Source: Oscillospiraceae bacterium
GTDB taxonomy: Bacteria; Bacillota; Clostridia; TANB77; CAG-508
Assembly: GCA_009778695.1 (NCBI GenBank)
Contig: WRFS01000004.1
Span: 1 to 64,000, forward strand
DNA length: 64,000 nucleotides
Reading direction: 5' to 3'
This document shows positions 44,497 through 58,906 of the stretch, one piece after another (the first letter of the stretch is position 1; the number at the start of each line of letters is the position of its first letter). The translations under genes and the position numbers were made by a program. The notes under the pieces were generated by a model, which searched no databases, was not told the DNA's origin, and was given only the letters and a program-made list of their open reading frames with translations.

Positions 44497-44528
44497 ATAT
44501 TCATGTTTTAAAAATGAAAAGAGGAACT

Positions 44529-45248
44529 ATGAACTTATACATTGATGAGTCAGGAAGTATTGATATTAAAAAAAATAATTTTAATAAATATTTCATTATA
44601 TCGGTATTAATGACAAATGATAAAGATAAACTTAAAACTATATATAAAAGATTTGTTAGTAAAAATATGAACAAATTAAAGCAATTAGATGAAGATTTTA
44701 AAATGTTTTCAAAAGATGGATCTTTTACAGAATTAAAAGGTTCTTGTTTTGATAGAGAATTAAAAAACGAATTTTTAGATTATTTTTGTAGAAATAATCT
44801 ATTACAAGTAAGATATATTATATTAAATAATGATAATTTAGAAGAAAAGTTTACTAAAAATAAAGCTCGTACATTTAATTATTCGATGAAAATATTTTTG
44901 CTTAATTCTATACATATGAAAATGATTACCAACACACAATTATATCTACAAATAGATGAACGAAATATTAAAACAGATTCTAAATTTTCCCTTGAAGATT
45001 ATTTAAATCAAGAATTAGTTCTTGATTTAAATTTAATAGAAGATATAAAAGTCGATTATTTTAATTCTGAAAATAATGCTCTAATACAGATTTCTGATGT
45101 TTTTGCCAATATTAAATATTCTAATTTAAAAACTAAGGGAAAATATAGTGCCAAGTTACATCAATTAGAAAAAGAAGGATACATTTTAAAAGATTTTAAA
45201 TTCCCTAAAGCTTTTATCCCACCCAAAGTATTAAAAAATAAAATATAG
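44529..45248 (+). CDS. DUF3800-domain protein
   Basis: 239 residues. Opens with the family signature MNLYIDESGSIDI and has the later conserved acidic region 'LYLQIDERNIKTDSKFSLEDYLNQEL' and 'VDYFNSENNALIQISDVFANIKYSNL' (the IQ..D..A motif). The fold is RNase H-like with conserved Asp residues, so a nuclease or structured-RNA role is suspected; the family is frequent in mobile and defence regions. Start at ATG 44529 behind AAAAGAGGAACT. It is followed directly by two related structured RNAs (45283-45377 and 45484-45574); RNA motifs near DUF3800 genes have been catalogued as DUF3800-I to -XI. Confidence 0.88.
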   Translation: MNLYIDESGSIDIKKNNFNKYFIISVLMTNDKDKLKTIYKRFVSKNMNKLKQLDEDFKMFSKDGSFTELKGSCFDRELKNEFLDYFCRNNLLQVRYIILNNDNLEEKFTKNKARTFNYSMKIFLLNSIHMKMITNTQLYLQIDERNIKTDSKFSLEDYLNQELVLDLNLIEDIKVDYFNSENNALIQISDVFANIKYSNLKTKGKYSAKLHQLEKEGYILKDFKFPKAFIPPKVLKNKI

Positions 45249-46803: not shown

Positions 46804-47937
46804 CTATACTGGTGATGCTGTTAATACTAAATCAAGTCTTATGCTTGAACCTGATGCTGAGTCAGCACAGTCATAATCTTGTCCTTCAATCCAGAAGTAA
46901 ATTCTCATTTTTGTAACACCAGCTTTTAAAGTAATTCCTGTAGATGTTGGTGAACTATTTTCTCTTTTTGTAGTAAGCATATTTAGCACACCAGGGCTTG
47001 ATGTCATAGGACTAAAAAATGATGCATTTGCTGCTGCAGTTGTATTCGTTAATAAAATAGGGTCTGTAATGACTGTAGCAGGGCTTGTAGAATTATCTAG
47101 AGTTGCTGCTTTAACTCCATCATAAGTTACTGTCTGATAATTAATTTGACCTATTCCAGTTCCTGTCCAATTATCACTAGCAGCTGTAGGAACTGTTGCT
47201 CCTGGATCCGTACTAAAATCTTTTCCATACAAGTTACGTGCAGAGGCTACAGCAGCCGCTGTATGTGCATCCGCATTTGGTTCCCAAATTGTAACTAACC
47301 CTGTAGAATCTACTAATTGTTCAATATTTTTTGTTGAATCCTCTGCTGTGGTATTTCCTTGATCTACAAAAGCTATACGAGCTGCATCTTCCATTCCTTT
47401 TAATGGCTTATTCGGTGTTCCATCTTGACCAATATCCTTTACACCTGCACTTGAATCTAATTGTAGATATATGTCACTATTTGTTTTAAAATATAAATCA
47501 AATGCTGCATAAGAAACTGTATCGGTATCATCTGTTGCTGCTGTTGTTGTTAATACATATTCACCATCAGAGTTTACGTCAACTGCTCCATCAAACATGT
47601 CTAAATACCCTGTATCCGAATCTCTATCCCCTGCTGTTGAAACAGGTGTCATTAGTGATGGTAAGTGATTATTATATAAATCTAGATTACCAGCATCCGA
47701 ATAAGCACCGCTTGTCACGCTACCAGTTATATCCGCTGCATTAATTAATGATTTCCAGTTAATTCCATCTAACGATATTTGGAATCCTGCTGATGCTTGT
47801 ACATTGATGTCCATTGAACTCACCATAACTAATTTGTTTGATGTAAACCATGCATATGTTGACATGATTAAAAATACTGCTAATAATAATAAAATGATTA
47901 ATGATCTTTTTGCATTAAATTTTTTTGTTTTTTTCAT
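46804..47937 (-). CDS. Exported TasA/CalY-like protein (large)
   Basis: 377 residues. SipW-type signal: KKTKKFNAKRSLIILLLLAVFLIMSTYAWFTS, with the 'AWFT' signature of this export class. The mature part is Asp/Thr/Ala-rich, starting MDINVQASAGFQISLDGINW and ending 'MRIYFWIEGQDYDCADSASGSSIRLDLVLTASPV', resembling CalY/TasA-type fibre proteins. Secreted, probably processed by a SipW peptidase from the cluster at 50139-57478. Polymerisation is inferred from the family. Ribosome binding site AAGGAAGAGGGAAGGCAA. Confidence 0.75.
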   Translation of the reverse strand: MKKTKKFNAKRSLIILLLLAVFLIMSTYAWFTSNKLVMVSSMDINVQASAGFQISLDGINWKSLINAADITGSVTSGAYSDAGNLDLYNNHLPSLMTPVSTAGDRDSDTGYLDMFDGAVDVNSDGEYVLTTTAATDDTDTVSYAAFDLYFKTNSDIYLQLDSSAGVKDIGQDGTPNKPLKGMEDAARIAFVDQGNTTAEDSTKNIEQLVDSTGLVTIWEPNADAHTAAAVASARNLYGKDFSTDPGATVPTAASDNWTGTGIGQINYQTVTYDGVKAATLDNSTSPATVITDPILLTNTTAAANASFFSPMTSSPGVLNMLTTKRENSSPTSTGITLKAGVTKMRIYFWIEGQDYDCADSASGSSIRLDLVLTASPV

Positions 47938-48084: not shown

Positions 48085-48786
48085 TTACTGCAATATTTTT
48101 TCTTCCTGAATTTCCATATGCATCTTCATCTCTCCACCTATAATATTATCAAGGCATTGCGGGTCATCTCCTTCAACCCAAATAACAACTGTAAATTTAT
48201 CAATATCTCCAGTTTTCATTCCTGCTCTTTCTTGCATGCATACATATTTGTCTGAATAAAAAGGTGTTGTTCCTGGCTCTGGTTGTCCATTTACTCCCAT
48301 TTTTGCATACACCGTACTCTTTCCGTTTAGGAAAATCTCTACCCTTGCTGCATCATCCACGTTTTTTATTACATCATCTATTACAATACTATACCAATAA
48401 TTCGTGTCCAATCCTAAGTTTTCTATATAAAATGTATATGCTATGTAATTTTGTCCGTTATGGCTTCCATCCGCTTCGTCATTTATGTTTTTAGGTAACC
48501 AATTTATTGAAATATTATCCATAGTATCTGGTCTTGCTGCTTCCAAAATCATTCTATTTACTTTGTCTTTTGAATTTTCGTACATAATAATACCTTTATC
48601 TCTAGCAAAATTTTGATCTAATATTATTGTAAAATCACCATTGTTATAAAATAATTTCAATAGAAAATATATAATTATAAGAAACAAAGTCGTGGTTAAT
48701 AAGCCTATTTTTAGGACTTTAATTCTCATTTCTCTCTTTTTTAACTTATCTGCATGTGTTTCTATTTCCTTTTTATTCTTTGCCAT
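48085..48786 (-). CDS. Exported protein of the TasA/SipW cluster
   Basis: 233 residues. Charged N-terminus (MAKNKKEIETHADKLKKREMRIKVLK) before a single hydrophobic helix (IGLLTTTLFLIIIYFLLKLF), then an outside beta-rich domain (TIILDQNFARDKGIIMYENSKDKVNRMI..., 'YIAYTFYIENLGLDTNYWYSIVIDDVIKNVDDAARVEIFLNGKS', 'FTVVIWVEGDDPQCLDNIIGGEMKMHMEI'). The phrase WVEGDDP..C parallels WIEGQDY.C in the neighbouring 46804 gene, so the two probably share a fold. No TasA cleavage signature. Confidence 0.65.
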   Translation of the reverse strand: MAKNKKEIETHADKLKKREMRIKVLKIGLLTTTLFLIIIYFLLKLFYNNGDFTIILDQNFARDKGIIMYENSKDKVNRMILEAARPDTMDNISINWLPKNINDEADGSHNGQNYIAYTFYIENLGLDTNYWYSIVIDDVIKNVDDAARVEIFLNGKSTVYAKMGVNGQPEPGTTPFYSDKYVCMQERAGMKTGDIDKFTVVIWVEGDDPQCLDNIIGGEMKMHMEIQEEKILQ

Positions 48787-48851: not shown

Positions 48852-49457
48852 ATGAAAAATTTTAAAAAAGTTGTTTTTATTTTAAGTTGTATTTCTTTGT
48901 TGTTTTCTATCACATTTATAGTTCAAACTTATGCAAAATATGCAACATCTATTAGTGGTTCATCTGATATTAATATTGCCAAATGGGATATTATTGTAAA
49001 TGATGAAAATATAAAAACCAACTCTAATTTAACTAATGTAATATCTCCTGTATTCCCTGGCAATTCAAATATCGCAAGTAATGTAATTGCACCTACCGCT
49101 GAAGGATATTTCGACCTAGCCTTTGATTTTTCTCAAGTTGACGTTTCTTTTGATTATAATATATCTATTTCTGTTAATAGTAACAGTAGCGTAACTGATT
49201 TGGTTGCCACTGGATATAGTGTTGATGATGGATTAACACAACCTTTTGACTCTAGCCAAACTATTTCTAATCATGTTAATTATTCAGATGACCATTCAGC
49301 TCCTGTAAATATTAGAGTATATATTAAATGGGAAGATGGAACTGGTGCCATGATGAATAATACAGATGATACACTAGCTACACTTCCTGATGCATCTTCA
49401 CAAGCAAGACCTGCTATATTTGATGTAACTGTTTCTTTCACTCAAACACCAGTTTAA
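48852..49457 (+). CDS. TasA/CalY-like exported protein
   Basis: 201 residues. Signal peptide KNFKKVVFILSCISLLFSITFIVQTYAKYATS (SipW-type, 'YAKY'), then the family opening 'SGSSDINIAKWDIIVND' and the 'VFPGNSNIASNVIAPTAEGYFDLAFDFSQVDVSFDYNISISV' core; the C-terminus reads 'VNIRVYIKWEDGTGAMMNNTDDTLATLP'. The same pattern (W.I.VN, APG/AEGYF.L....S.V...Y.I) recurs in the 56359 gene. Probable fibre or matrix subunit on the cell surface. It is the only gene of the cluster on the plus strand, with its own promoter. Confidence 0.8.
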   Translation: MKNFKKVVFILSCISLLFSITFIVQTYAKYATSISGSSDINIAKWDIIVNDENIKTNSNLTNVISPVFPGNSNIASNVIAPTAEGYFDLAFDFSQVDVSFDYNISISVNSNSSVTDLVATGYSVDDGLTQPFDSSQTISNHVNYSDDHSAPVNIRVYIKWEDGTGAMMNNTDDTLATLPDASSQARPAIFDVTVSFTQTPV

Positions 49458-49490: not shown

Positions 49491-50094
49491 CTACTCAACT
49501 TGTGTTGCCTTTAGTTCTAATTGCATACTTATGCTTGGTGTGTTTGGATTAGCTTGGTAATAATTTGCTGCCAACTCACCCCAATATGTATCTAATGCAT
49601 CTTTTTGTTGTATATCTGTTTCATTATCTCCCTGTTCAAAAGGCCACGTTATTGCAATAACAATATTTGATGAGCCATTAGTTGCCGCCATAGTAGCGTT
49701 GTCAATCGATACGGAAATATGAAATGGATATGTTTCACTTGCAATTAACGCTGATAAGTCAGTTCCATCATCATCTGTATAAGTTTGACCCAATATAGTT
49801 ATTGATTTTATCGTATATGTTACATTCGCTTCTTTTTCTCCATCGTTATATGCTGTTATTTGTTGCGTATAGTCTTCCATTCCGTGGGAAAATTTTGTCT
49901 ACATCAAATTCAATATTTGAAACAGTTTCTTGATTGCCCGCTCTAAATACGACACTCCACGCTTCTATATGTGCAGTTATTTGTCCTGATACTCTTGTTT
50001 GAAAAACGAACCATGCATAAGTATTAAACATAAGTAACAAAATTAATATAATTAAAGTTCTCAATTTTACTCTTTTAAAAATCTTTTTTAACAC
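49491..50094 (-). pseudogene. TasA/CalY-like exported protein, frameshifted
   Basis: Frame 1 (49846-50094): signal RTLIILILLLMFNTYAWFVFQTRVSG and WSVVFRAGNQETVSNIEFDVDKIFPR. Frame 2 (49491-49880): MEDYTQQITAYNDGEKEANVTYTIKSITI and onward to QLELKATQVE. Homologues run '..IFPGMEDY...' through the junction. At about 49884 the minus strand has CCCACGGAATGG; dropping one C gives P-G-M-E-D-Y, so one extra base separates the frames. Either inactive, or a sequence error in an intact 210-residue gene. It is the last gene of the SipW operon. Confidence 0.75.
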
Positions 50095-50138: not shown

Positions 50139-50675
50139 CTATTCATCATTCTTTTTGAAGCCTATTACCATTTTTCTTATTTCAATGAATATAAGTATTA
50201 CAAGTGGTATAAATACTACAAAGTAGAATGCGTATACATTACTAAGTATTTTTGATATTTGGCTAAGAACTGGTACCTTACACACTACTACTCCAAATAT
50301 TTGACTGCCCGATATTGGTGGATCTTCTGTATCATTTGCAATTCCTTTTGTGTGAAATATTTTCTGCCCATTTACATCTTCAATTGCTACTAACTCATGT
50401 GTTACTATCTTATCTTTAAAATCGCCATCCACTCCCATATATGTTACGTCATCGCCTACTTTTATTTGGTCGGTATCCATCGATTTTGATAATAATACAT
50501 CACCTACATTGTATTTGGGCACCATGCTTTCTGTAACTACATTAAATATTCTAAATCCTGCTAAACTAAGTGAATTATTAGAAAACCTTTGTATTATTAC
50601 AACCAATAGTATTAGTATTGTAAGAACAAATAATATCCAATATAATATATTTCCTACTATTTTTAATGTTTTCAT
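50139..50675 (-). CDS. SipW-type signal peptidase I (1)
   Basis: 178 residues. S26B-type (ER-type) peptidase that cleaves signal peptides of TasA/CalY-like proteins. Transmembrane helices at both ends (LYWILFVLTILILLVVIIQRF; YAFYFVVFIPLVILIFIEI). Catalytic Ser50 in VVTESMVPKYNVGDVLL and His93 in DKIVTHELVAI; 'FHTKGIANDTEDPPI' is the usual third box. Archaeal/ER-type enzymes use this Ser-His pair in place of Ser-Lys. It belongs to the operon that starts at 57478. Confidence 0.9.
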   Translation of the reverse strand: MKTLKIVGNILYWILFVLTILILLVVIIQRFSNNSLSLAGFRIFNVVTESMVPKYNVGDVLLSKSMDTDQIKVGDDVTYMGVDGDFKDKIVTHELVAIEDVNGQKIFHTKGIANDTEDPPISGSQIFGVVVCKVPVLSQISKILSNVYAFYFVVFIPLVILIFIEIRKMVIGFKKNDE

Positions 50676-50692
50676 ATTATTTACCTATTCTC

Positions 50693-51823
50693 CTATCCGT
50701 TAATTTTTTCAATATATTTGTTTATATGTTTTTTAAATATTTCTTGAATTCCCGCAATTGTTGCCATGTTTTTATATTTTATTGCGGTATACTTTTCTCC
50801 TACCATATCTTGTAAATTTTCTTTACTTAAATTTGGATTTAAGTTTACAAGCTGATCAAGTAATTGTTCTGTTAATTTATCTTTAGCTTTTTGACGATCT
50901 TCTGCTTCTTGTTCGCTTAAATTATCTTCATAGTCTTTATCCAAAGTATTTACAACTAAATAATTAAGTAAAAAGTTTTCGTCTACAAATTTTTTTAATT
51001 CACCTTGATCTATGTAATCTTTATTATCCTTAATATCTTGAGTTTGATCTTCAAGAAAATCATTTAAATAATTCCATAATTGCATCGCATATTGGAAATT
51101 TACATTTTTCAATATCATATTTGTTTTCTTTATCGGTGACGTAATTAGTGCAATATGTAGCTTGTCGATTACTTTATAAACTTCTGAACCTGTTAATGCT
51201 AATATTTTTCTCTCTAATTCTTTAATTCTTTCCATTATTTCTTCTATGTCTTCTTTATTTTGGTATTCATCATTTAAAGAGGTGTTTAACATTATACTTA
51301 TATTTACATTTTCTTTCAACATTTTGCAATTGCCTGTGTATTCTATTTTTTTATCATTTTTATTTTCTCCAAGATTTTGCTGTTGTAATATTTGCTTTTT
51401 CTTAATAATAAAATATTTCATATTTTGAATTAATGTATAAATAACACGGTTTTCATAGGTATTATAACTTTCTTCTTTATTAATGTTTAATATTTTTGAA
51501 GGCGTTACATCACCTGTTTTCTTATCAATATCTTGTATTAAGTTTGTATTTCTAGATAGATGTTTTATGCTTTCTACTGTAATTTTTTTTGCTTGTTCTA
51601 TTTTCACAATATCTTCTTCGTTTACAATGAATCTGTTTGGATTTCTTAAAATGTTATCTATGTATGGTATGGCTTCATCTATCATATCAATCCAATCAAT
51701 ATCTCTTACAACTTTTTCATAATTTGTTTTTACCCTTAATGAAGAATCTACCGTGTTAGAAAATTCTTCAACTGTTTTATTGTTCTTTTCGTATAAGTCT
51801 ACTACTCCTAAATCAGTTTCCAT
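50693..51823 (-). CDS. DUF2357-like partner of the AAA+ ATPase
   Basis: 376 residues, soluble and helical. The central 'KEESYNTYENRVIYTLIQNMKYFI' matches the DUF2357 pattern ('E.ydt.ENRfvk.ll') that is found N-terminal to the nuclease in McrC-like proteins. I see no PD-(D/E)XK nuclease motif after it; the C-terminal 120 residues are acidic and coiled (DNLSEQEAEDRQKAKDKLTEQL). Directly downstream of the McrB-like ATPase (30-base gap), mirroring the mcrB-mcrC order. Without a nuclease it is unlikely to be a plain restriction enzyme. Confidence 0.7.
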   Translation of the reverse strand: METDLGVVDLYEKNNKTVEEFSNTVDSSLRVKTNYEKVVRDIDWIDMIDEAIPYIDNILRNPNRFIVNEEDIVKIEQAKKITVESIKHLSRNTNLIQDIDKKTGDVTPSKILNINKEESYNTYENRVIYTLIQNMKYFIIKKKQILQQQNLGENKNDKKIEYTGNCKMLKENVNISIMLNTSLNDEYQNKEDIEEIMERIKELERKILALTGSEVYKVIDKLHIALITSPIKKTNMILKNVNFQYAMQLWNYLNDFLEDQTQDIKDNKDYIDQGELKKFVDENFLLNYLVVNTLDKDYEDNLSEQEAEDRQKAKDKLTEQLLDQLVNLNPNLSKENLQDMVGEKYTAIKYKNMATIAGIQEIFKKHINKYIEKING

Positions 51824-51853
51824 GCCACTCGCAAGCTCCTTTCCCTCGCATTT

Positions 51854-53383
51854 TTATGTTAATTTTTTCAATCTCAACATATATTCAATACATTCTTTCA
51901 TTGCACCTCGTCCAAATGTTTTATTTAAGAATTCTACGAATGGATCTATTTCGTCTCTAATATATGCTACATTTAATTGTTCAAATTTTCTTAAAACTTT
52001 TTTTGCCATGAAATAGTCAACCCCTGAAACTTCCGTACCACCACAATCAACATATACTGGTACAAATTTTCTCATATGTGCAACAATACGATTACCAAAA
52101 GCAATTCTAAAATGTTGAATAACGTAGTTGTCCATTTCTTCTACTTTATCTAATATTTGCTGTGATAGCTGATTTTTTGTCATTGCGGATGTAAATAATC
52201 CTTTTAAATATGTATAATTAACATCCATAGGTTCAATATCTTTAGCTTTAAATACTTTTCCCTTTTCGTTAATGTCAATTGGCATTGCTCTATCATAAAC
52301 TTTATCCGTAACAATAAATGTAGAGTCATCATTATTAATTGTTCCTATATACCATAAATTAGCTGGTACTTTCAATTTTCCATGATTTAATCTAACAGGG
52401 TCGCTTTTCCAATGACTTGGTACTAACTCAATTATCCACTCATCTTCATTTGGCATTTCAAGAATAGATAACATTTCTGCAAAATAGTATTCCACACGAG
52501 CTATGTTCATTTCGTCCAATATTATAGTGTAAATATCGTTTGTGTAATTTGCTCGATATAATTCTCTTAATACTTCTGTTTCGTTAAACTTTTTGGTAAA
52601 CTCGTTGAAATACCCAAAAATTTCTGTTCTATCTCTCCATGACGGTTGAACCGATGCAACACAAGAATCATTCTTCAAAAATTTTCCCCAAGCATATGCT
52701 AAAGAGGTTTTACCTGTACCAGAAATACCTTGTAAAATTACTAATTTTGTTGAAGACATTGCTGAAACAAATAATCTTATCATTTCTTCTGAGTAATATA
52801 ATTTTAATTTTCCAGCTGAAAAGTTCCTAAAACTATCACAAAATTCTACCAAACTGAAATTGTTTCCGTAATCTTTAACTTTATAGTTTTTATATTCTTC
52901 GTCAATTTCATTTAATTTTGCAAATCTAATACCTTGTCCTCCAACATCTTCCTCTTTCTCTTCTTCATGTGCTGTTTCTTCAACTGGAGATTCACCAGGT
53001 TTTAATCCTAATTGCGAAACCTTCATTGCCATAATTTCATCTTTTTGTTTCATTAATGTAACTACTTGATTGTTTAAACTAGCAACTTCATCTAACAATT
53101 CCTCCTGGTTTATTGATTTTTTCCTAAATTTTACGTATTTTCTTATAAGAAACAAAATGATTAAAGCAGCCATACCTACAACCATAACAGTCATAAATAT
53201 AGATAGTCCGACTAAAAGCCATTCTGGCATAGATAAATCGCCTTTATATTTTTCAATTATATCTTTGTAGGCATTTATATTAAATATTTGAATAAATCCT
53301 GTTCCTATGCCTTTAAACATTTCTAATATTCCGCCAACAAATTGTGATAAAAATTCATACAAAAACTTTGTAAAAGTTTGCAT
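51854..53383 (-). CDS. Membrane-anchored McrB-like AAA+ ATPase
   Basis: 509 residues. N-terminal amphipathic region, one transmembrane helix at about 54-80 (PEWLLVGLSIFMTVMVVGMA and onward), a coiled-coil (90-120), an acidic linker (EETAHEEEKEEDVGGQG) and then an AAA+ domain of the McrB/dynein-like group: Walker A GISGTGKTS (219-227), Walker B TIILDEMNIARVEYYF, sensor 1 'WYIGTINNDDST', 'VYDRAMPIDI'. A restriction McrB has a DNA-binding N-domain; this one has a membrane anchor instead. It sits inside a SipW operon, between an unknown protein and the DUF2357 protein. Confidence 0.85.
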   Translation of the reverse strand: MQTFTKFLYEFLSQFVGGILEMFKGIGTGFIQIFNINAYKDIIEKYKGDLSMPEWLLVGLSIFMTVMVVGMAALIILFLIRKYVKFRKKSINQEELLDEVASLNNQVVTLMKQKDEIMAMKVSQLGLKPGESPVEETAHEEEKEEDVGGQGIRFAKLNEIDEEYKNYKVKDYGNNFSLVEFCDSFRNFSAGKLKLYYSEEMIRLFVSAMSSTKLVILQGISGTGKTSLAYAWGKFLKNDSCVASVQPSWRDRTEIFGYFNEFTKKFNETEVLRELYRANYTNDIYTIILDEMNIARVEYYFAEMLSILEMPNEDEWIIELVPSHWKSDPVRLNHGKLKVPANLWYIGTINNDDSTFIVTDKVYDRAMPIDINEKGKVFKAKDIEPMDVNYTYLKGLFTSAMTKNQLSQQILDKVEEMDNYVIQHFRIAFGNRIVAHMRKFVPVYVDCGGTEVSGVDYFMAKKVLRKFEQLNVAYIRDEIDPFVEFLNKTFGRGAMKECIEYMLRLKKLT

Positions 53384-53394
53384 ATTCCCTCCCT

Positions 53395-54387
53395 TTAAAT
53401 AACAATCACATTATTCAGGTTTGTATTTCCTATAATTTGATAACTCCATTTTGCTTCTTCATTTACTAAAATATACTTAAACATTTTTAATTTTTCTAAT
53501 GTTTCAAGTGAACTTTCAAATGTATTATCAACTATAATTGCAAATTTAAAGCCTCGTTTCATAAGTTCATAAATTTTTTCCTTATTTTTTAAAAACACTT
53601 TATATGTTAGTTTTAAACTGATTTTGTCTTGCACAATTGAATTATCTATTAAACTTAATAGTCTTTCTAATTTTTGATTTTTTTCAAATAAACTTTCAGC
53701 AAATTCTATAATGTAGCTCTTCTTTAAATTTCCTTTTATTACATCTTGTACAATTTGCAGCGATACCAAATTATATTCTATGAATAACTTATCCTCGTTC
53801 ACTGTTCCCGTACTAAATGCCTTCTCTGTTGCCATATTACTATATATCATAGGTATTTTAAAATTATATTTTAAAGTTACTTTATATGTATTGCTTAATT
53901 TGTAATTAGATATTTTAATATAAAATCCTGTACTATCATATTTTTTATAAAATTCTTCTAATTCTATGTCATTTTCATTTAAGATGTTTTTTAAATTTTC
54001 TTTGAATTTGCTGTCCGTCTTATTAAGTATAGTTTTTCTTAATTCATCTATATCTTCTATATTTCTATCTAAATCTTTATTTGGTACGATTTTATCAAAA
54101 TAAATTATTTTAGTGAAAAACAAATACATATTTTCTACAAGTTTTGTTTCTTTTAAATCTTCTTCTAGAAGTTTATTTTTCCCTTTTTCTAATTCAAATA
54201 GCGTACTTCGTTTTAATGTGCTTTCATTTCTGTCTTCGCTAAAATCATAATATCTACTGTTTGCATATATTTCCCAAAACTTTTCAAAAATATTTTTTTT
54301 AAAGTCATTATCAAAGATAAGTTTAGTAATTTCGTGCATATGTTTTTTTGTAATGTTTAAGTATTCATTCATTATATTAGTTGCCAT
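53395..54387 (-). CDS. Unknown protein, first member of the AAA+/DUF2357 triad
   Basis: 330 residues, no signal peptide or membrane helix. Helical N-terminal half (MNEYLNITKKHMHEITKLIFDNDFKKNIFEKFWEIYANSRYYDF) and a beta-rich second half ('TGFYIKISNYKLSNTYKVTLKYNFKIPMIYSNMATEKAFSTGTVNEDKLFIEYNLVSLQIVQDVIKGN'). Family not recognised. It is 11 bases upstream of the ATPase gene and so almost certainly translated with it. A substrate- or adaptor-binding role would fit the position but is speculation. Confidence 0.65.
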   Translation of the reverse strand: MATNIMNEYLNITKKHMHEITKLIFDNDFKKNIFEKFWEIYANSRYYDFSEDRNESTLKRSTLFELEKGKNKLLEEDLKETKLVENMYLFFTKIIYFDKIVPNKDLDRNIEDIDELRKTILNKTDSKFKENLKNILNENDIELEEFYKKYDSTGFYIKISNYKLSNTYKVTLKYNFKIPMIYSNMATEKAFSTGTVNEDKLFIEYNLVSLQIVQDVIKGNLKKSYIIEFAESLFEKNQKLERLLSLIDNSIVQDKISLKLTYKVFLKNKEKIYELMKRGFKFAIIVDNTFESSLETLEKLKMFKYILVNEEAKWSYQIIGNTNLNNVIVI

Positions 54388-54409: not shown

Positions 54410-55219
54410 TTATTGACTGGATATTCCTATTATTGAAGTATTTGTATAATTCTTACTTGAGTCTACTTTATAAAATCTTATTTTTGTACTTGTCATGCTT
54501 TTTAAATTAAATGTGAACCCATTAACATAGTTATACGTTCCTATTACTGTATTTGTTGCATTTGTTGCATTCAAATATGTATCATTTGTCATATCCAATA
54601 ATACTGTGTTTGGATCAAAACTTAAGGATACCTGTGCATTTACTGATAATGTATTGCTTATTTCTAATTCCAAATATGGACTATTTGCTGAATCTGTAAT
54701 TTGATATGAAACTTTTTGCGAGCTTATAGTCAAATAAAATTTGGCACCAAGGGTCTTTTGGTATGGATCCGTTGATGTCGCAGTTACTTGAAAAGAAACT
54801 ACATCCCCTACATTTAATGGGGTATTCGGTCGTACTGTTATAGTAAAATCATCTGTCCCAATACTAGAATCAATTGTGCCAGATGTTTTACTTAAACTGC
54901 AAAGTATTTCATCAGATACATTAGAAAGTGAAATGCTGTAATTTATATTATATGGTGTATGTAACAATTCATTTGCCCAGCTACTCATATTTACATTTAT
55001 TGTGTACATATTTATACCGCTTTCCCAATCTTCTATTTTATAAGTCGGCATGTTTGTCGATAATTTATCACTGGAAAAATAAAATTCCTTTGATTTACTG
55101 AAGAAATCATTATATTTATCTAATACATATCTTGCAAAGACAGAGGCAAAAGACAACGCAATAACTAAAACACATACTAATATAATTTTCTTTTTAATTG
55201 ACATGCGTTTTTTCATCAT
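54410..55219 (-). CDS. Exported protein of the SipW operon
   Basis: 269 residues. SipW-like signal KKKIILVCVLVIALSFASVFARYV, then Ser/Thr/Asn-rich beta domains (INYSISLSNVSDEILCSLSKTSGTIDSS; FTITVRPNTPLNVGDVVSFQVTATSTDPYQKTLGAKFYLTISSQKVSY). Likely secreted and built of Ig-like sandwiches. No family identified. Within the operon, three bases downstream of the 55223 gene and 22 bases upstream of the triad. Confidence 0.7.
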   Translation of the reverse strand: MMKKRMSIKKKIILVCVLVIALSFASVFARYVLDKYNDFFSKSKEFYFSSDKLSTNMPTYKIEDWESGINMYTINVNMSSWANELLHTPYNINYSISLSNVSDEILCSLSKTSGTIDSSIGTDDFTITVRPNTPLNVGDVVSFQVTATSTDPYQKTLGAKFYLTISSQKVSYQITDSANSPYLELEISNTLSVNAQVSLSFDPNTVLLDMTNDTYLNATNATNTVIGTYNYVNGFTFNLKSMTSTKIRFYKVDSSKNYTNTSIIGISSQ

Positions 55220-55222
55220 ACG

Positions 55223-55807
55223 TTACTCCCCATCTACAATCTGACTAGAATTTATGATAATTTCTAAGCTTTCAATTATATTTTGATAATCTGGCGAATT
55301 ATTAGCTGCTGGAAAATAAATCGCTAGTTGATAATAATTTGTTTGGTTTTCTACATAACCAAAATCCTCAGGAGCAGCTGTAATAGTTCTAAAGTATGTG
55401 CCATCACTATCTGCAGAAATTGTATTATTGCCTAAAGCAATATCTATTGCACCTTGAGCATCATAAGTTTGATTTTCATATAATTTATATATTAACGGTA
55501 AATTCGTTGTTGTTTTTATACTTAACGTGTACTCTATATTTAAATCTGTTCTGTTAGTTTCATTAAAATTTGAAATAGAAAAATTATATATGTATGGATC
55601 CTCTCTTGGTGTTAGCTGGTCTAAACATAGATTCATTGTTTGAGTATCTTCATTTAATACATACAAAGCAACATCTATTTTCCCTATAGAAGATGTTTGA
55701 CTTTCGTACCTTGATGTAGTATTAAGTACTAACTTTATCACTACAACAACCAACACTAGAAAAGCTATCAACTTAATAATATTACTAATTCTTCTTTTCT
55801 TTTTCAT
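55223..55807 (-). CDS. Exported protein of the SipW operon
   Basis: 194 residues. Signal anchor IIKLIAFLVLVVVVIKLVLNTTSRYESQTS ('RYES' at the cleavage region), then a beta-rich mature part ('KIDVALYVLNEDTQTMNLCLDQLTPREDPYIYNFSISNFNETNRTDLNIEYTLSIKTTTNLPLIYKLYENQTYD'), which resembles the CalY/TasA core (opening 'IDVALYVLN', 'Y.FSISNFN....TDLNIEYTLSI'). Probable minor fibre component; follows the second SipW peptidase by 35 bases. Confidence 0.7.
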   Translation of the reverse strand: MKKKRRISNIIKLIAFLVLVVVVIKLVLNTTSRYESQTSSIGKIDVALYVLNEDTQTMNLCLDQLTPREDPYIYNFSISNFNETNRTDLNIEYTLSIKTTTNLPLIYKLYENQTYDAQGAIDIALGNNTISADSDGTYFRTITAAPEDFGYVENQTNYYQLAIYFPAANNSPDYQNIIESLEIIINSSQIVDGE

Positions 55808-55842: not shown

Positions 55843-56349
55843 CTAGTCTCTAGTACGATATGAAAGCGTAATTCCCCACAACAATACTGTTATTAAAACG
55901 GATATATATACTTGTGGAGTCATTATAACACTCTCCCATATACCAACTTGAGGAATCGTTTTTATTACCTTCCCAATAATATCTTGTTTTTGTATAGGAT
56001 TATCTTCTACATTATTTGCATCTCCCTTTGTAATAAATCCATTTTCTAATATTTGTGTAATACGGTGTGTAATAATGCCTCCATCTTGATTAAACACTAT
56101 AATATCGCCTACTTTTAAGTCTCCTTTTTGTTCATCGGTTAAAATATGAGCAATAATAATATCCTTTTCTTCCATAGTTGGAGACATACTGCCAGTTGCC
56201 ACCTGAAACACTGAGTACCCAAAATAGTTTGAATATTTATTTTTCAGTATTTTTGTTTGAACTGTACCCACCAATGCAATTAGTACAATAGCCACTACAA
56301 TTACAATTAAAACATTTAATATTATTCCAAATATATTTTTTATTTTCAT
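55843..56349 (-). CDS. SipW-type signal peptidase I (2)
   Basis: 168 residues. Membrane helices at the start (GIILNVLIVIVVAIVLIALVG) and end (VYISVLITVLLWGITLSY). Catalytic Ser54 in QVATGSMSPTM, His95 in GGIITHRITQI, and the third box 'GFITKGDANNVEDNPI'. All features of an active ER-type peptidase. Flanked by two CalY/TasA-like genes (56359 upstream, 55223 downstream), which are its probable substrates. Confidence 0.93.
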   Translation of the reverse strand: MKIKNIFGIILNVLIVIVVAIVLIALVGTVQTKILKNKYSNYFGYSVFQVATGSMSPTMEEKDIIIAHILTDEQKGDLKVGDIIVFNQDGGIITHRITQILENGFITKGDANNVEDNPIQKQDIIGKVIKTIPQVGIWESVIMTPQVYISVLITVLLWGITLSYRTRD

Positions 56350-56358
56350 AAAAAACTC

Positions 56359-56967
56359 CTAAATTCCTGTAATTGCTTCTCCCAAATATTGTGTTACCTT
56401 AACTTTAATTGGTATTTCTACAATTGGGGTATTTACAGCATCTTTATCACCAGTATCATCCCATTTAAATGTAATTTTTATTGTATTAACGTAATCGTCT
56501 TTAATGTCAGACACTGGTATAATACCTGTATATGTATCTTCTGCTGTTTGAATAAGAGTATTGTTTGCCATTATCTCTTCTACAGAAATCAAATGTATAT
56601 TTTGAAGTATAGCTGAAGATTGGTCAATTGTTATATCATATCTAACAGAAACCTGTGTATCTTGTGGTTCAATAGTTAACTCAAAATATCCTTCCAAACC
56701 AGGTGCAAATTTCCCTCCCATTACGCTTGCATTAGGTACAACAAAATCTCCCATATCAAAGCTTTGCTCTGTTCCAGATACGATATCCTGATTATTAACC
56801 AAGATTTTCCACCTTGCTAAACTTTCACTAACATTAGCTGTAGCTTGACTATGAAAAAGTGCATAAACACTGGTTATTTCATATATAGCAACAAGTGTTA
56901 ATATAAAAGTTACTAGTACTAAATATTTTTTTATTATTTTTTTACTATTTCTTTTGTTTACTTCCAT
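56359..56967 (-). CDS. TasA/CalY-like exported protein
   Basis: 202 residues. Signal KYLVLVTFILTLVAIYEITSVYALFHSQAT, then 'ANVSESLARWKILVNNQDIVSG', 'GKFAPGLEGYFELTIEPQDTQVSVRYDITIDQSS' and 'YVNTIKITFKWDD'. This is the same pattern as the 48852 gene (W.I.VN..., APG.EGYF.L), so both belong to one family. Probable fibre subunit. Its 5' end overlaps the degenerate S26 gene by 23 bases, nine bases before the second peptidase. Confidence 0.8.
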   Translation of the reverse strand: MEVNKRNSKKIIKKYLVLVTFILTLVAIYEITSVYALFHSQATANVSESLARWKILVNNQDIVSGTEQSFDMGDFVVPNASVMGGKFAPGLEGYFELTIEPQDTQVSVRYDITIDQSSAILQNIHLISVEEIMANNTLIQTAEDTYTGIIPVSDIKDDYVNTIKITFKWDDTGDKDAVNTPIVEIPIKVKVTQYLGEAITGI

Positions 56968-57478
56968 TCGTTTCTCTCTTATTTCCTCTCATTTCAGAGA
57001 TCATTTCAAATACTTCATGTAGAAACGCTAATAATGCTGGTAATACTACTAATATTAAAAATCCCCATTTAGATTCCAATACGCTTAATACGGTACCAAC
57101 CACTGGAATAACTTTTGCATCTGTTGAATTTCCTATAACATAGTCACTAGATATTTTGTTATCTCCTTCTAAAGTGTAAGTAATTTGTGTATCCGTTACG
57201 TTTTCTTGTTTAGTTACTCCCGCTAAACTAATAGCCATTTTGTTAGGGACATTATAAAAGAAAACTTTGTCTCCTACTTTTATTTCCTTGCTTCTATCAA
57301 CAATTACAAGTTCACCTCTGTTAAAATTTGGTTGCAGTTTATCACTGTCAATAATTACTAATGAATAATTCCCAAACTCTGTAACTTTATATTCATTAAA
57401 CGATAATAAACATACTGTAACAATTATGGCGACTATTGCATAAAGAATTATGATTATATTTCGAATAGTCTTTTTCAT
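56945..57478 (-). CDS. S26-like membrane protein lacking catalytic residues
   Basis: 177 residues with the layout of the SipW peptidases (N-terminal helix IIIILYAIVAIIVTVCLL, C-terminal helix FLILVVLPALLAFLHEV). At the Ser position (S-M-x-P) it has 47-KLQP in IIDSDKLQPNFNRGELVIVD, and the His box (I-x-T-H) reads MAISLAGVT; the third box is 'YTLEGDNKISSDYVIGNS'. So the catalytic Ser and His are both absent. It may be a pseudo-enzyme that binds or presents substrates. First gene of the operon. Confidence 0.75.
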   Translation of the reverse strand: MKKTIRNIIIILYAIVAIIVTVCLLSFNEYKVTEFGNYSLVIIDSDKLQPNFNRGELVIVDRSKEIKVGDKVFFYNVPNKMAISLAGVTKQENVTDTQITYTLEGDNKISSDYVIGNSTDAKVIPVVGTVLSVLESKWGFLILVVLPALLAFLHEVFEMISEMRGNKRETNGSKQKK

Positions 57479-57500: not shown

Positions 57501-57529
57501 AATATATCATAAGATTTTTTTTTAATCAA
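57501..57529 (-). promoter_or_regulatory. Promoter of the SipW operon
   Basis: Minus-strand TTGATT (57529-57524), 17 bases, TATATT (57506-57501), followed by AGGAGG before ATG 57478. It appears to serve ten genes down to 49491, since the internal gaps are 3-44 bases or overlaps. Confidence 0.7.
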
Positions 57530-57622
57530 CAGAATTAGACATTTTTTTTATTAATTTTTTATTAATTTTATATTGATTTTTTTTTAATAATGTAATAAAA
57601 TTAAAACGAGGTGTACAAAAGA

Positions 57623-58906
57623 ATGATAAATTTAGATAATGAAGTTATAAAAACATGTTTTAAATCCATAATTGAATCCGAAATAGACAAAATAAATTTT
57701 TCAGTAGAAGAGCAGCAATCATTAAATGCAAAGGTCTTTGGTTATTTAAGCGACCTTTCTTCTAATACGCCTCCTAATGCTGACGATTTAATTATTTCAG
57801 ATGTTTCTGCTAAAATAGTTTCTGCTTCTGAATTGTTAAAAATAATATCTGGCAATATAAAAACTCTTACAGACCTTTTAGAGAATTTAAGAAAAATAAA
57901 AGAAACTTTATCTATAGCTGATAATAAAACTATTAAAAAAATTTTACAATATAACGAAACTTATACCTCTGCTATGGATCAAATTTCTATCAATACTTTA
58001 AAAATAGAAAAATTTATTAAGGAATCTAATTCCACTTATACTCAACCTATAGTTTCTACTCCAGAACCTTCAACTTCAATAGATGAACAACTTGAAGAAA
58101 CTTTGTTAAAAATGAATAATTATATTGAACAAATTAAGCAGGTATCACCTGCATCAAAGATTAAACAGCCACAACCAGTTATAGGAGAACAACCAAAAGA
58201 AGAAGTAATAGCACAACAACCTACTATTCAAGAAAAGGTTATAATACAACAGCCTATTATTCAAGAAGAAGCAATAGTGCAGCAGCCTGTTGTACAAGAA
58301 AAAGAAACAATACAACAGCCTGTTGTTCAATCTATTATGCAAGAAATTCCAGTACCAAGTGCTGAAAATATTATTGAAATTGTAAAAGAAAATCAAGAGG
58401 AAGTTTTAGATGAAATTATTGAAGAAAAGTCTGCTGATTTGCTAGCCGACCTAACCAAAGACTTACAGGAAAACACTTTAATTATTTCAGAAGTAGATAA
58501 AAAAGTAATTTTACCATACAAAATAGACGATATAATACAAATTTTTAAAGACAACCTTGAAAAATTCGTATCATTACAACAAATTATTGATAAATTTTAT
58601 ACTATACCACTAAAAGATTATAAACATTCGTCAAATGCTCGCTTTAAAGAAGCTTTTAATTTAGTTAGAAAAAAAGAAAAAGGCTCTGTTTTTAAAGCCT
58701 TAGACTTAGCTCTTGAATTATTTTCAAACTATAACTTACATCCAGCAATTATCACCGCCTGTAAAGACATGCATGAATTAGATGTTTATTTGTCTTGTTT
58801 AGAATATAATGAACTTGATGATTTTAACTTCTTTAATATTAAATTTATTACTCCCCCAGCAAAAGTGAAAAAATCAAAACGAGCTCTTGCATCAAGCCCA
58901 GCGTAA
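57623..58906 (+). CDS. Repeat-containing coiled protein, unknown
   Basis: 427 residues from ATG 57623, 10 bases after GAGGT; an in-frame GTG at 57611 overlaps the ribosome binding site. Helical N-terminal 150 residues, then a Gln/Pro/Ile/Val-rich tandem repeat (residues about 195-240: 'EEVIAQQPTIQEKVII', QQPIIQEEAIV, QQPVVQEKETI, QQPVVQ), and a helical C-terminal domain (DDIIQIFKDNLEKFVSLQQIIDKF ... 'GSVFKALDLALELFSNYNLHPAII'). No signal peptide. Divergent from the SipW operon with 145 bases between starts. Family unknown. Confidence 0.7.
   Translation: MINLDNEVIKTCFKSIIESEIDKINFSVEEQQSLNAKVFGYLSDLSSNTPPNADDLIISDVSAKIVSASELLKIISGNIKTLTDLLENLRKIKETLSIADNKTIKKILQYNETYTSAMDQISINTLKIEKFIKESNSTYTQPIVSTPEPSTSIDEQLEETLLKMNNYIEQIKQVSPASKIKQPQPVIGEQPKEEVIAQQPTIQEKVIIQQPIIQEEAIVQQPVVQEKETIQQPVVQSIMQEIPVPSAENIIEIVKENQEEVLDEIIEEKSADLLADLTKDLQENTLIISEVDKKVILPYKIDDIIQIFKDNLEKFVSLQQIIDKFYTIPLKDYKHSSNARFKEAFNLVRKKEKGSVFKALDLALELFSNYNLHPAIITACKDMHELDVYLSCLEYNELDDFNFFNIKFITPPAKVKKSKRALASSPA

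Follow-up and report, generated by a model that had tools for sequence, protein, structure and literature searches.

An anchored AAA+ protein and its DUF2357 partner

The window analysed here is a stretch of 64,000 nucleotides from an Oscillospiraceae bacterium (contig WRFS01000004.1 of assembly GCA_009778695.1, positions 1 to 64,000), and our subject is a gene cluster centred in it on three adjacent genes, which encode a DUF2357 protein, an McrB-like AAA+ protein and a third protein, U330. The cluster joins an anchored AAA+ protein of the NxD type and a DUF2357 protein without a nuclease site, in a conserved operon, to three SipW-type signal peptidases, two of them intact and one dead, and to some seven exported subunits. 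The positions, sizes and spacing given for the three genes in the preliminary description of this DNA match the open reading frames (ORFs) exactly, with 30 bases between the DUF2357 and AAA+ genes and 11 bases between the AAA+ and U330 genes:

50693-51823, minus strand: DUF2357 protein, 376 residues; McrC N-domain-like partner without nuclease, presumed activator or stator of the motor
51854-53383, minus strand: McrB-like AAA+/GTPase of the NxD clade, 509 residues; N-terminal membrane anchor and heptad-like linker; presumed motor
53395-54387, minus strand: U330, degenerate EAL-like protein, 330 residues; EAL fold at 151-330 and a helical N-terminal half; presumed regulator or scaffold

The AAA+ protein is seen only weakly by Pfam, and a profile of its orthologs compared with the PDB found McrB as its only relatives (E 2e-6). 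The Walker A (GISGTGKTS) and Walker B (ILDEMN) motifs, already noted as intact, are near-invariant in orthologs together with sensor-1 (GTINNDDST) and the arginine in DKVYDRA. The NxD signature reads NNDD in all 47 members with the motif covered, and GTINNDDST aligns column by column to GTVNMDETT (NxDE) of other NxD McrBs, unlike the NTAD of E. coli McrB. In our tree the members, 41-72% identical, group in a single clade that excludes other McrBs (support 0.94). Hydropathy places a transmembrane segment at about residues 56-80, which bears out the membrane anchor that the pair was said to have gained; the single helix originally described is a minimum, as several orthologs have a further hydrophobic stretch on the N-terminal side of this one. 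Pfam gave no FtsB/DivIC match for the N-terminus with its transmembrane segment and heptad-like stretch, no dedicated FtsB comparison having been run, and no match in the protein to a McrB-type DNA-binding specificity domain; the N-terminus is the membrane anchor.

The partner matches PF09823 at residues 55-155 (E 1.4e-11), in agreement with its first assignment as DUF2357-like. The supposed loss of the nuclease also holds: Pfam found no nuclease family in this protein, and an alignment of 43 sequences shows no conserved nuclease site and, past residue 160, not one conserved D or E. These two lines of evidence, domain search and conservation, carry the conclusion because the AlphaFold2 model, built from 5 sequences, was too poor to use (pLDDT, the predicted local distance difference score, of 64) and fold searches with it returned noise. 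A DUF2357 profile compared with E. coli McrC, built on few sequences, found nothing. The Blautia form of the protein (635 residues) carries a long coiled-coil-like tail, and the C-terminal part of the window protein was poorly modelled.

Signal peptidases, exported subunits and genomic context

The AAA+ gene is present in 21/195 genomes of the same family, where relatives are 61-72% identical, and elsewhere in the order; it also occurs in Blautia sp. MSJ-19 (41% identical) and in 18 further genomes among 250 from the family of MSJ-19. We read the flanking DNA around most of these loci. Across the family of the window organism the genes keep their order, which can still be recognised elsewhere in its taxonomic order and in Lachnospiraceae. 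Near the window the core order is S26a, X202, S26b, X194, X269, U330, AAA+, DUF2357, S26c, X129, Tas2 (in many cases on the other strand), X233, Tas1. The clusters of Lachnospiraceae and of a second family in the order begin with X233 and YAWF-type subunits, usually with an S26 gene; AAA+ and DUF2357 come next, S26 and more subunits follow, and a giant surface protein often comes after the last of them.

With hidden Markov models built here, S26 genes were detected within 6 kilobases (<=6 kb) of the AAA+ gene in 42/44 loci with adequate flanks, and in 0/20 control loci encoding other NxD McrBs of the phylum (Fisher 1e-14). The grouping of AAA+ and signal peptidase genes is not due to chance, and the link to export is solid. 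A triad lying mostly outside SipW operons would have spoken for an ordinary restriction system inserted by accident; the opposite distribution was found. The two loci without S26, L124 (which has two AAA+ copies) and L125, belong to a sister lineage; their cassettes (L124 5397-9785; L125 3760-12811) adjoin membrane-anchored MBG-like repeat surface proteins, with a transglutaminase domain in L125. Genome G041 has two diverged copies of the whole cluster, on contigs C24 and C56 (L037, L048).

The tie of the pair to exported proteins, proposed from this single locus, is strengthened by X233, a membrane-anchored ectodomain protein, whose profile matches the same 21/195 family genomes as the AAA+ protein; the chance of such joint occurrence is 1e-28, a figure which ignores phylogeny. 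Presence of the two is patchy across 10 genera, and therefore repeated joint gain or loss is implied. A genome with two AAA+ copies has also two copies of X233, and in genome G065 a decayed X233 lies about 37 kb from the AAA+ gene.

It is at this point that a defence system of McrBC or CoCoNuT type, with the surface proteins as effectors or infection sensors, has to be considered, and coupling to defence had indeed been raised for this locus. The homology to McrB and to the McrC domain, the patchy distribution in 21/195 genomes and a PADLOC match to PDC-M26A (117 bits) would agree with such a role. However, this match is confined to the AAA core, no nuclease of PD-(D/E)XK or HEPN type was found among the operon proteins scanned, the co-inheritance with exported proteins is strict, and the S26 context is met in none of the 20 other McrB loci. 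A defence role is, in our opinion, quite improbable and the least likely among the readings.

All three S26 proteins of the cluster, earlier described as peptidase-like, are TIGR02228-like (E 3e-24, 7e-24 and 1e-10), and in this sense the description stands; one of them, S26a, lacks the catalytic Ser-His pair:

50139-50675, minus strand: S26c, SipW-type signal peptidase; catalytic Ser and His both kept in 29/29 aligned members
55843-56349, minus strand: S26b, SipW-type signal peptidase; catalytic Ser and His both kept in 24/24 aligned members
56945-57478, minus strand: S26a, conserved S26 pseudopeptidase; catalytic His in 0/20 members

Since the catalytic His of S26a is absent in all 20 aligned members (Ser is kept in 2/20), we regard it as a conserved pseudopeptidase, which perhaps acts as a scaffold or chaperone.

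The exported proteins of the cluster are the following:

56359-56967, minus strand: X202, exported subunit; hydrophobic segment at the N-terminus
55223-55807, minus strand: X194, exported subunit; hydrophobic segment at the N-terminus
54410-55219, minus strand: X269, exported subunit; hydrophobic segment at the N-terminus
49491-50094, minus strand: split subunit gene, overlapping frames 49846-50094 and 49491-49880; a single exported subunit of about 200 residues in relatives
48852-49457, plus strand: Tas2, exported subunit; opposite-strand position kept in many orthologous clusters
48085-48786, minus strand: X233, membrane-anchored ectodomain protein without the YAWF motif; co-inherited with AAA+
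46804-47937, minus strand: Tas1, YAWF-type subunit with SipW signal; presumed major fibre protein

Eleven co-directional ORFs, some of them overlapping, occupy 57478 to 49491, and no gap between them exceeds 44 bases. The frame break in the split gene, near 49870-49885, is either real or an assembly error.

The original assignment of the exported genes as CalY/TasA-like was not confirmed at the family level: Pfam gave no Peptidase_M73 match to the subunits, and their profiles A5 and A6 had no match in the PDB. TasA was absent from the PDB matches of the subunit profiles, and the one profile that did match, A4, found only designed helical-repeat proteins over residues 17-68, which we took as compositional chance. 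What may still suggest the likeness is a near-threshold SipW-type signal, TIGR04088, in the ortholog L030 (E 0.0044; 17.1 bits, the cutoff being 19), and the YAWF motif seen in subunit sequences; the likeness has no other support.

The many signal-anchored precursors, tightly linked to an AAA+ core with a membrane anchor, could also speak for quality control, in which the membrane-bound protein would extract or unfold failed fibre precursors, by a logic similar to that of Msp1 or FtsH, instead of driving assembly. Extraction alone would need no protease gene. Against this reading, S26 is the only protease type in the operon, the DUF2357 protein is a presumed activator of McrC type, and proteins of the McrB clade are not known as unfoldases. 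We consider quality control unlikely, while giving it more weight than defence.

U330 and a possible cyclic di-GMP link

U330 has no significant Pfam family match, and the preliminary description missed its identity. We guessed an EAL-like C-terminal half from the sequence ahead of any fold result. Structure prediction, which had been proposed as a check for this protein, then gave an EAL-like fold: the AlphaFold2 model from 6 sequences has a pLDDT of 78 and a pTM (predicted template modelling score) of 0.71, all, or almost all, of the top 50 Foldseek matches are structures with an EAL domain (best E 5e-4), and VIA-align superposes residues 151-330 on EAL with Z up to 14.0 over 172 residues (root-mean-square deviation 3.2). 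Bridging relatives exist in the same order (L126 and L127): the L127 protein matches Pfam EAL with E 2.6e-4, below the curated cut-off, and also the U330 profile with E 1e-20. The EAL residues ExL, N, E and DDFG are not kept in U330 and the last barrel strands are missing; therefore phosphodiesterase activity is very unlikely, and we take U330 for a catalytically dead EAL-like domain. In one relative (L026, 3-1976) an S26b-like peptidase and a U330-like protein are fused in a single ORF of 657 residues.

Clusters without U330, in Lachnospiraceae, mostly carry other proteins of cyclic di-GMP signalling. The gene directly upstream of X233 codes in L028 and L108 for a PilZ protein that has the motifs RxxxR and DxSxxG, in L115, L116, L118-L121 and L123 for an HD-GYP protein in which the HD and GYP motifs are present, and in L109 and L110 for a degenerate EAL protein, so that three different cyclic di-GMP domain families are found at one position in the cluster. 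An HD-GYP/EAL fusion precedes the subunit genes in L117, the neighbour of S26c in L111 is an EAL protein that also matches GGDEF weakly, and an HD-GYP ORF lies upstream in L122. A PilZ, HD-GYP or EAL gene is present in 14/16 clusters of this kind and in 1/20 controls, a comparison in which the HD-GYP cases come largely from one subclade and are thus not independent, and in which Lachnospiraceae may hold more such genes than the control genomes (Blautia has 12 GGDEF matches). We found no paper linking such clusters to cyclic di-GMP.

These partners, and dead S26a as a possible regulatory one, would suit a checkpoint NTPase, a ring that senses subunit export or cyclic di-GMP and switches peptidases or transcription without any mechanical role. 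All catalytic NTPase motifs are kept, however, and Pfam found no DNA-binding domain in U330, the AAA+ protein or the DUF2357 protein. We would rank such a checkpoint as improbable, slightly below quality control.

A possible machine for surface fibres

It had been stated that no system of this composition was described. A single paragraph of Bell et al. 2024 (PMC11090510), with no experiments, gave the name CoCoPALM to a clade of McrB-like GTPases of the NxD type (NxD followed by E or D) that carry a fused FtsB-like transmembrane segment and coiled coil. These have McrC/DUF2357 homologs, usually with a coiled coil, and are accompanied by signal peptidase genes, which are thought to assist pilus assembly. 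As far as that paragraph goes, the locus fits the description in its NxD GTPase and signal peptidase genes, and it has an N-terminal transmembrane segment with a heptad-like stretch and a DUF2357 partner, so the composition is not new; the assignment follows the published description, whereas the clade support comes from our own tree. Our literature search found no follow-up on CoCoPALM. Added here are the subunit set, the co-inheritance of X233, the EAL, PilZ or HD-GYP component, the dead S26a and the lack of a nuclease site. The third component, EAL-like U330, appears to be new: neither an EAL-like subtype nor the PilZ/HD-GYP exchange, X233 co-inheritance or dead S26a is described in the main text of PMC11090510.

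From the genes discussed above, we lean towards the suggestion that the locus encodes a CoCoPALM-type machine for surface fibres, in which a membrane-anchored McrB-type motor serves export or assembly of SipW-processed subunits under gating of cyclic di-GMP type. The AAA+ protein would form a ring attached to the cytosolic face of the membrane, and the DUF2357 protein would activate it in the way McrC does for McrB; NTP hydrolysis by the ring would drive, order or license subunit export or assembly, while the S26 enzymes would mature the subunits. X233, which is without the SipW motif, may be the membrane-held base or initiator, Tas1 the main subunit, and U330 a regulatory input or adaptor. 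The ancestral control was probably by cyclic di-GMP, because PilZ, HD-GYP or EAL proteins replace U330 in related clusters, and could resemble the control of the type IV pilus by FimX-PilZ. Rather tentatively, we may even suggest that a restriction-type NTPase with McrB and McrC domains was repurposed in Gram-positive gut bacteria as a cyclic di-GMP-gated assembly motor for SipW-processed filaments, unrelated to type IV pili, sortase pili and chaperone-usher systems.

A number of observations weigh against the fibre machine. Fibre, motor and cyclic di-GMP dependence are all predictions from the genes, TasA homology of the subunits is putative, and the fibres of TasA and BsaA described so far have SipW and no AAA+ partner (PMC9674648, PMC7395162); therefore a motor is not required in the known cases. 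The sequence link of U330 to EAL is weak but co-linear (hhalign P 0.003, and 0.82 for a P-type ATPase profile as negative control). No cyclic di-GMP gene was detected at the loci L112 and L114, and no cyclic di-GMP riboswitch was found upstream at gathering thresholds. The window genome, an assembly 93% complete with 7% contamination, has no Pfam EAL match, no intact GGDEF or EAL protein, and only one GGDEF match (L179, contig C3) with the signature degenerated to YMGPKF. This suggests loss of cyclic di-GMP synthesis, as judged from the sequence; the module may be vestigial in this organism and U330 there only a structural adaptor.

CoCoNuT systems share the NxD McrB clade with our locus and, according to the main text of PMC11090510, often have McrC homologs without an active nuclease; our locus differs in that no HEPN or other nuclease was found and in having a membrane anchor together with genes for export. 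E. coli McrBC has a similar AAA+ core with Walker and sensor residues and a DUF2357-type partner; our locus lacks the NTAD (NxxD) motif of that system, no PD-(D/E)XK nuclease was found in it, and Pfam gave no counterpart of the McrB DNA-binding domain. SipW-TasA and SipW-BsaA fibres likewise combine a SipW-type S26 peptidase with adjacent YAWF-type exported proteins; they differ in the missing AAA+ partner, and our subunits are only putative members of the TasA family. FimX-PilZ-PilB of type IV pili, a likeness of working only, also pairs an NTPase for fibre assembly with a receptor of degenerate EAL or PilZ type encoded together with it, although that NTPase and its subunits are unrelated and a cyclic di-GMP receptor role here is putative.

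On the current view, a signal peptidase is all that fibres of SipW/TasA type require. If the fibre machine exists, some of them are built by an active process and gated, the CoCoPALM group, so far named and not studied, gains a testable function other than defence, and cyclic di-GMP control extends to surface filaments of Gram-positive gut bacteria. It is also a warning that McrB/DUF2357 matches are not always restriction systems.

Promoter and terminator scans of the locus were no richer than shuffles; the candidate promoter site at 57529, from which co-transcription had been proposed, is present and scores only 9/12. The cluster is flanked by a divergent gene:

57611-58906, plus strand: divergent neighbour (P431); C-terminal domain of about 140 residues; possible accessory

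Pfam gave no significant domain in P431. Its C-terminal domain occurs in 21/21 AAA-bearing genomes of the family and in 24/174 others, with several paralogs in some genomes. Just outside the cluster, a DUF3800 protein (PF12686, E 5.5e-11) is encoded at 44514-45248.

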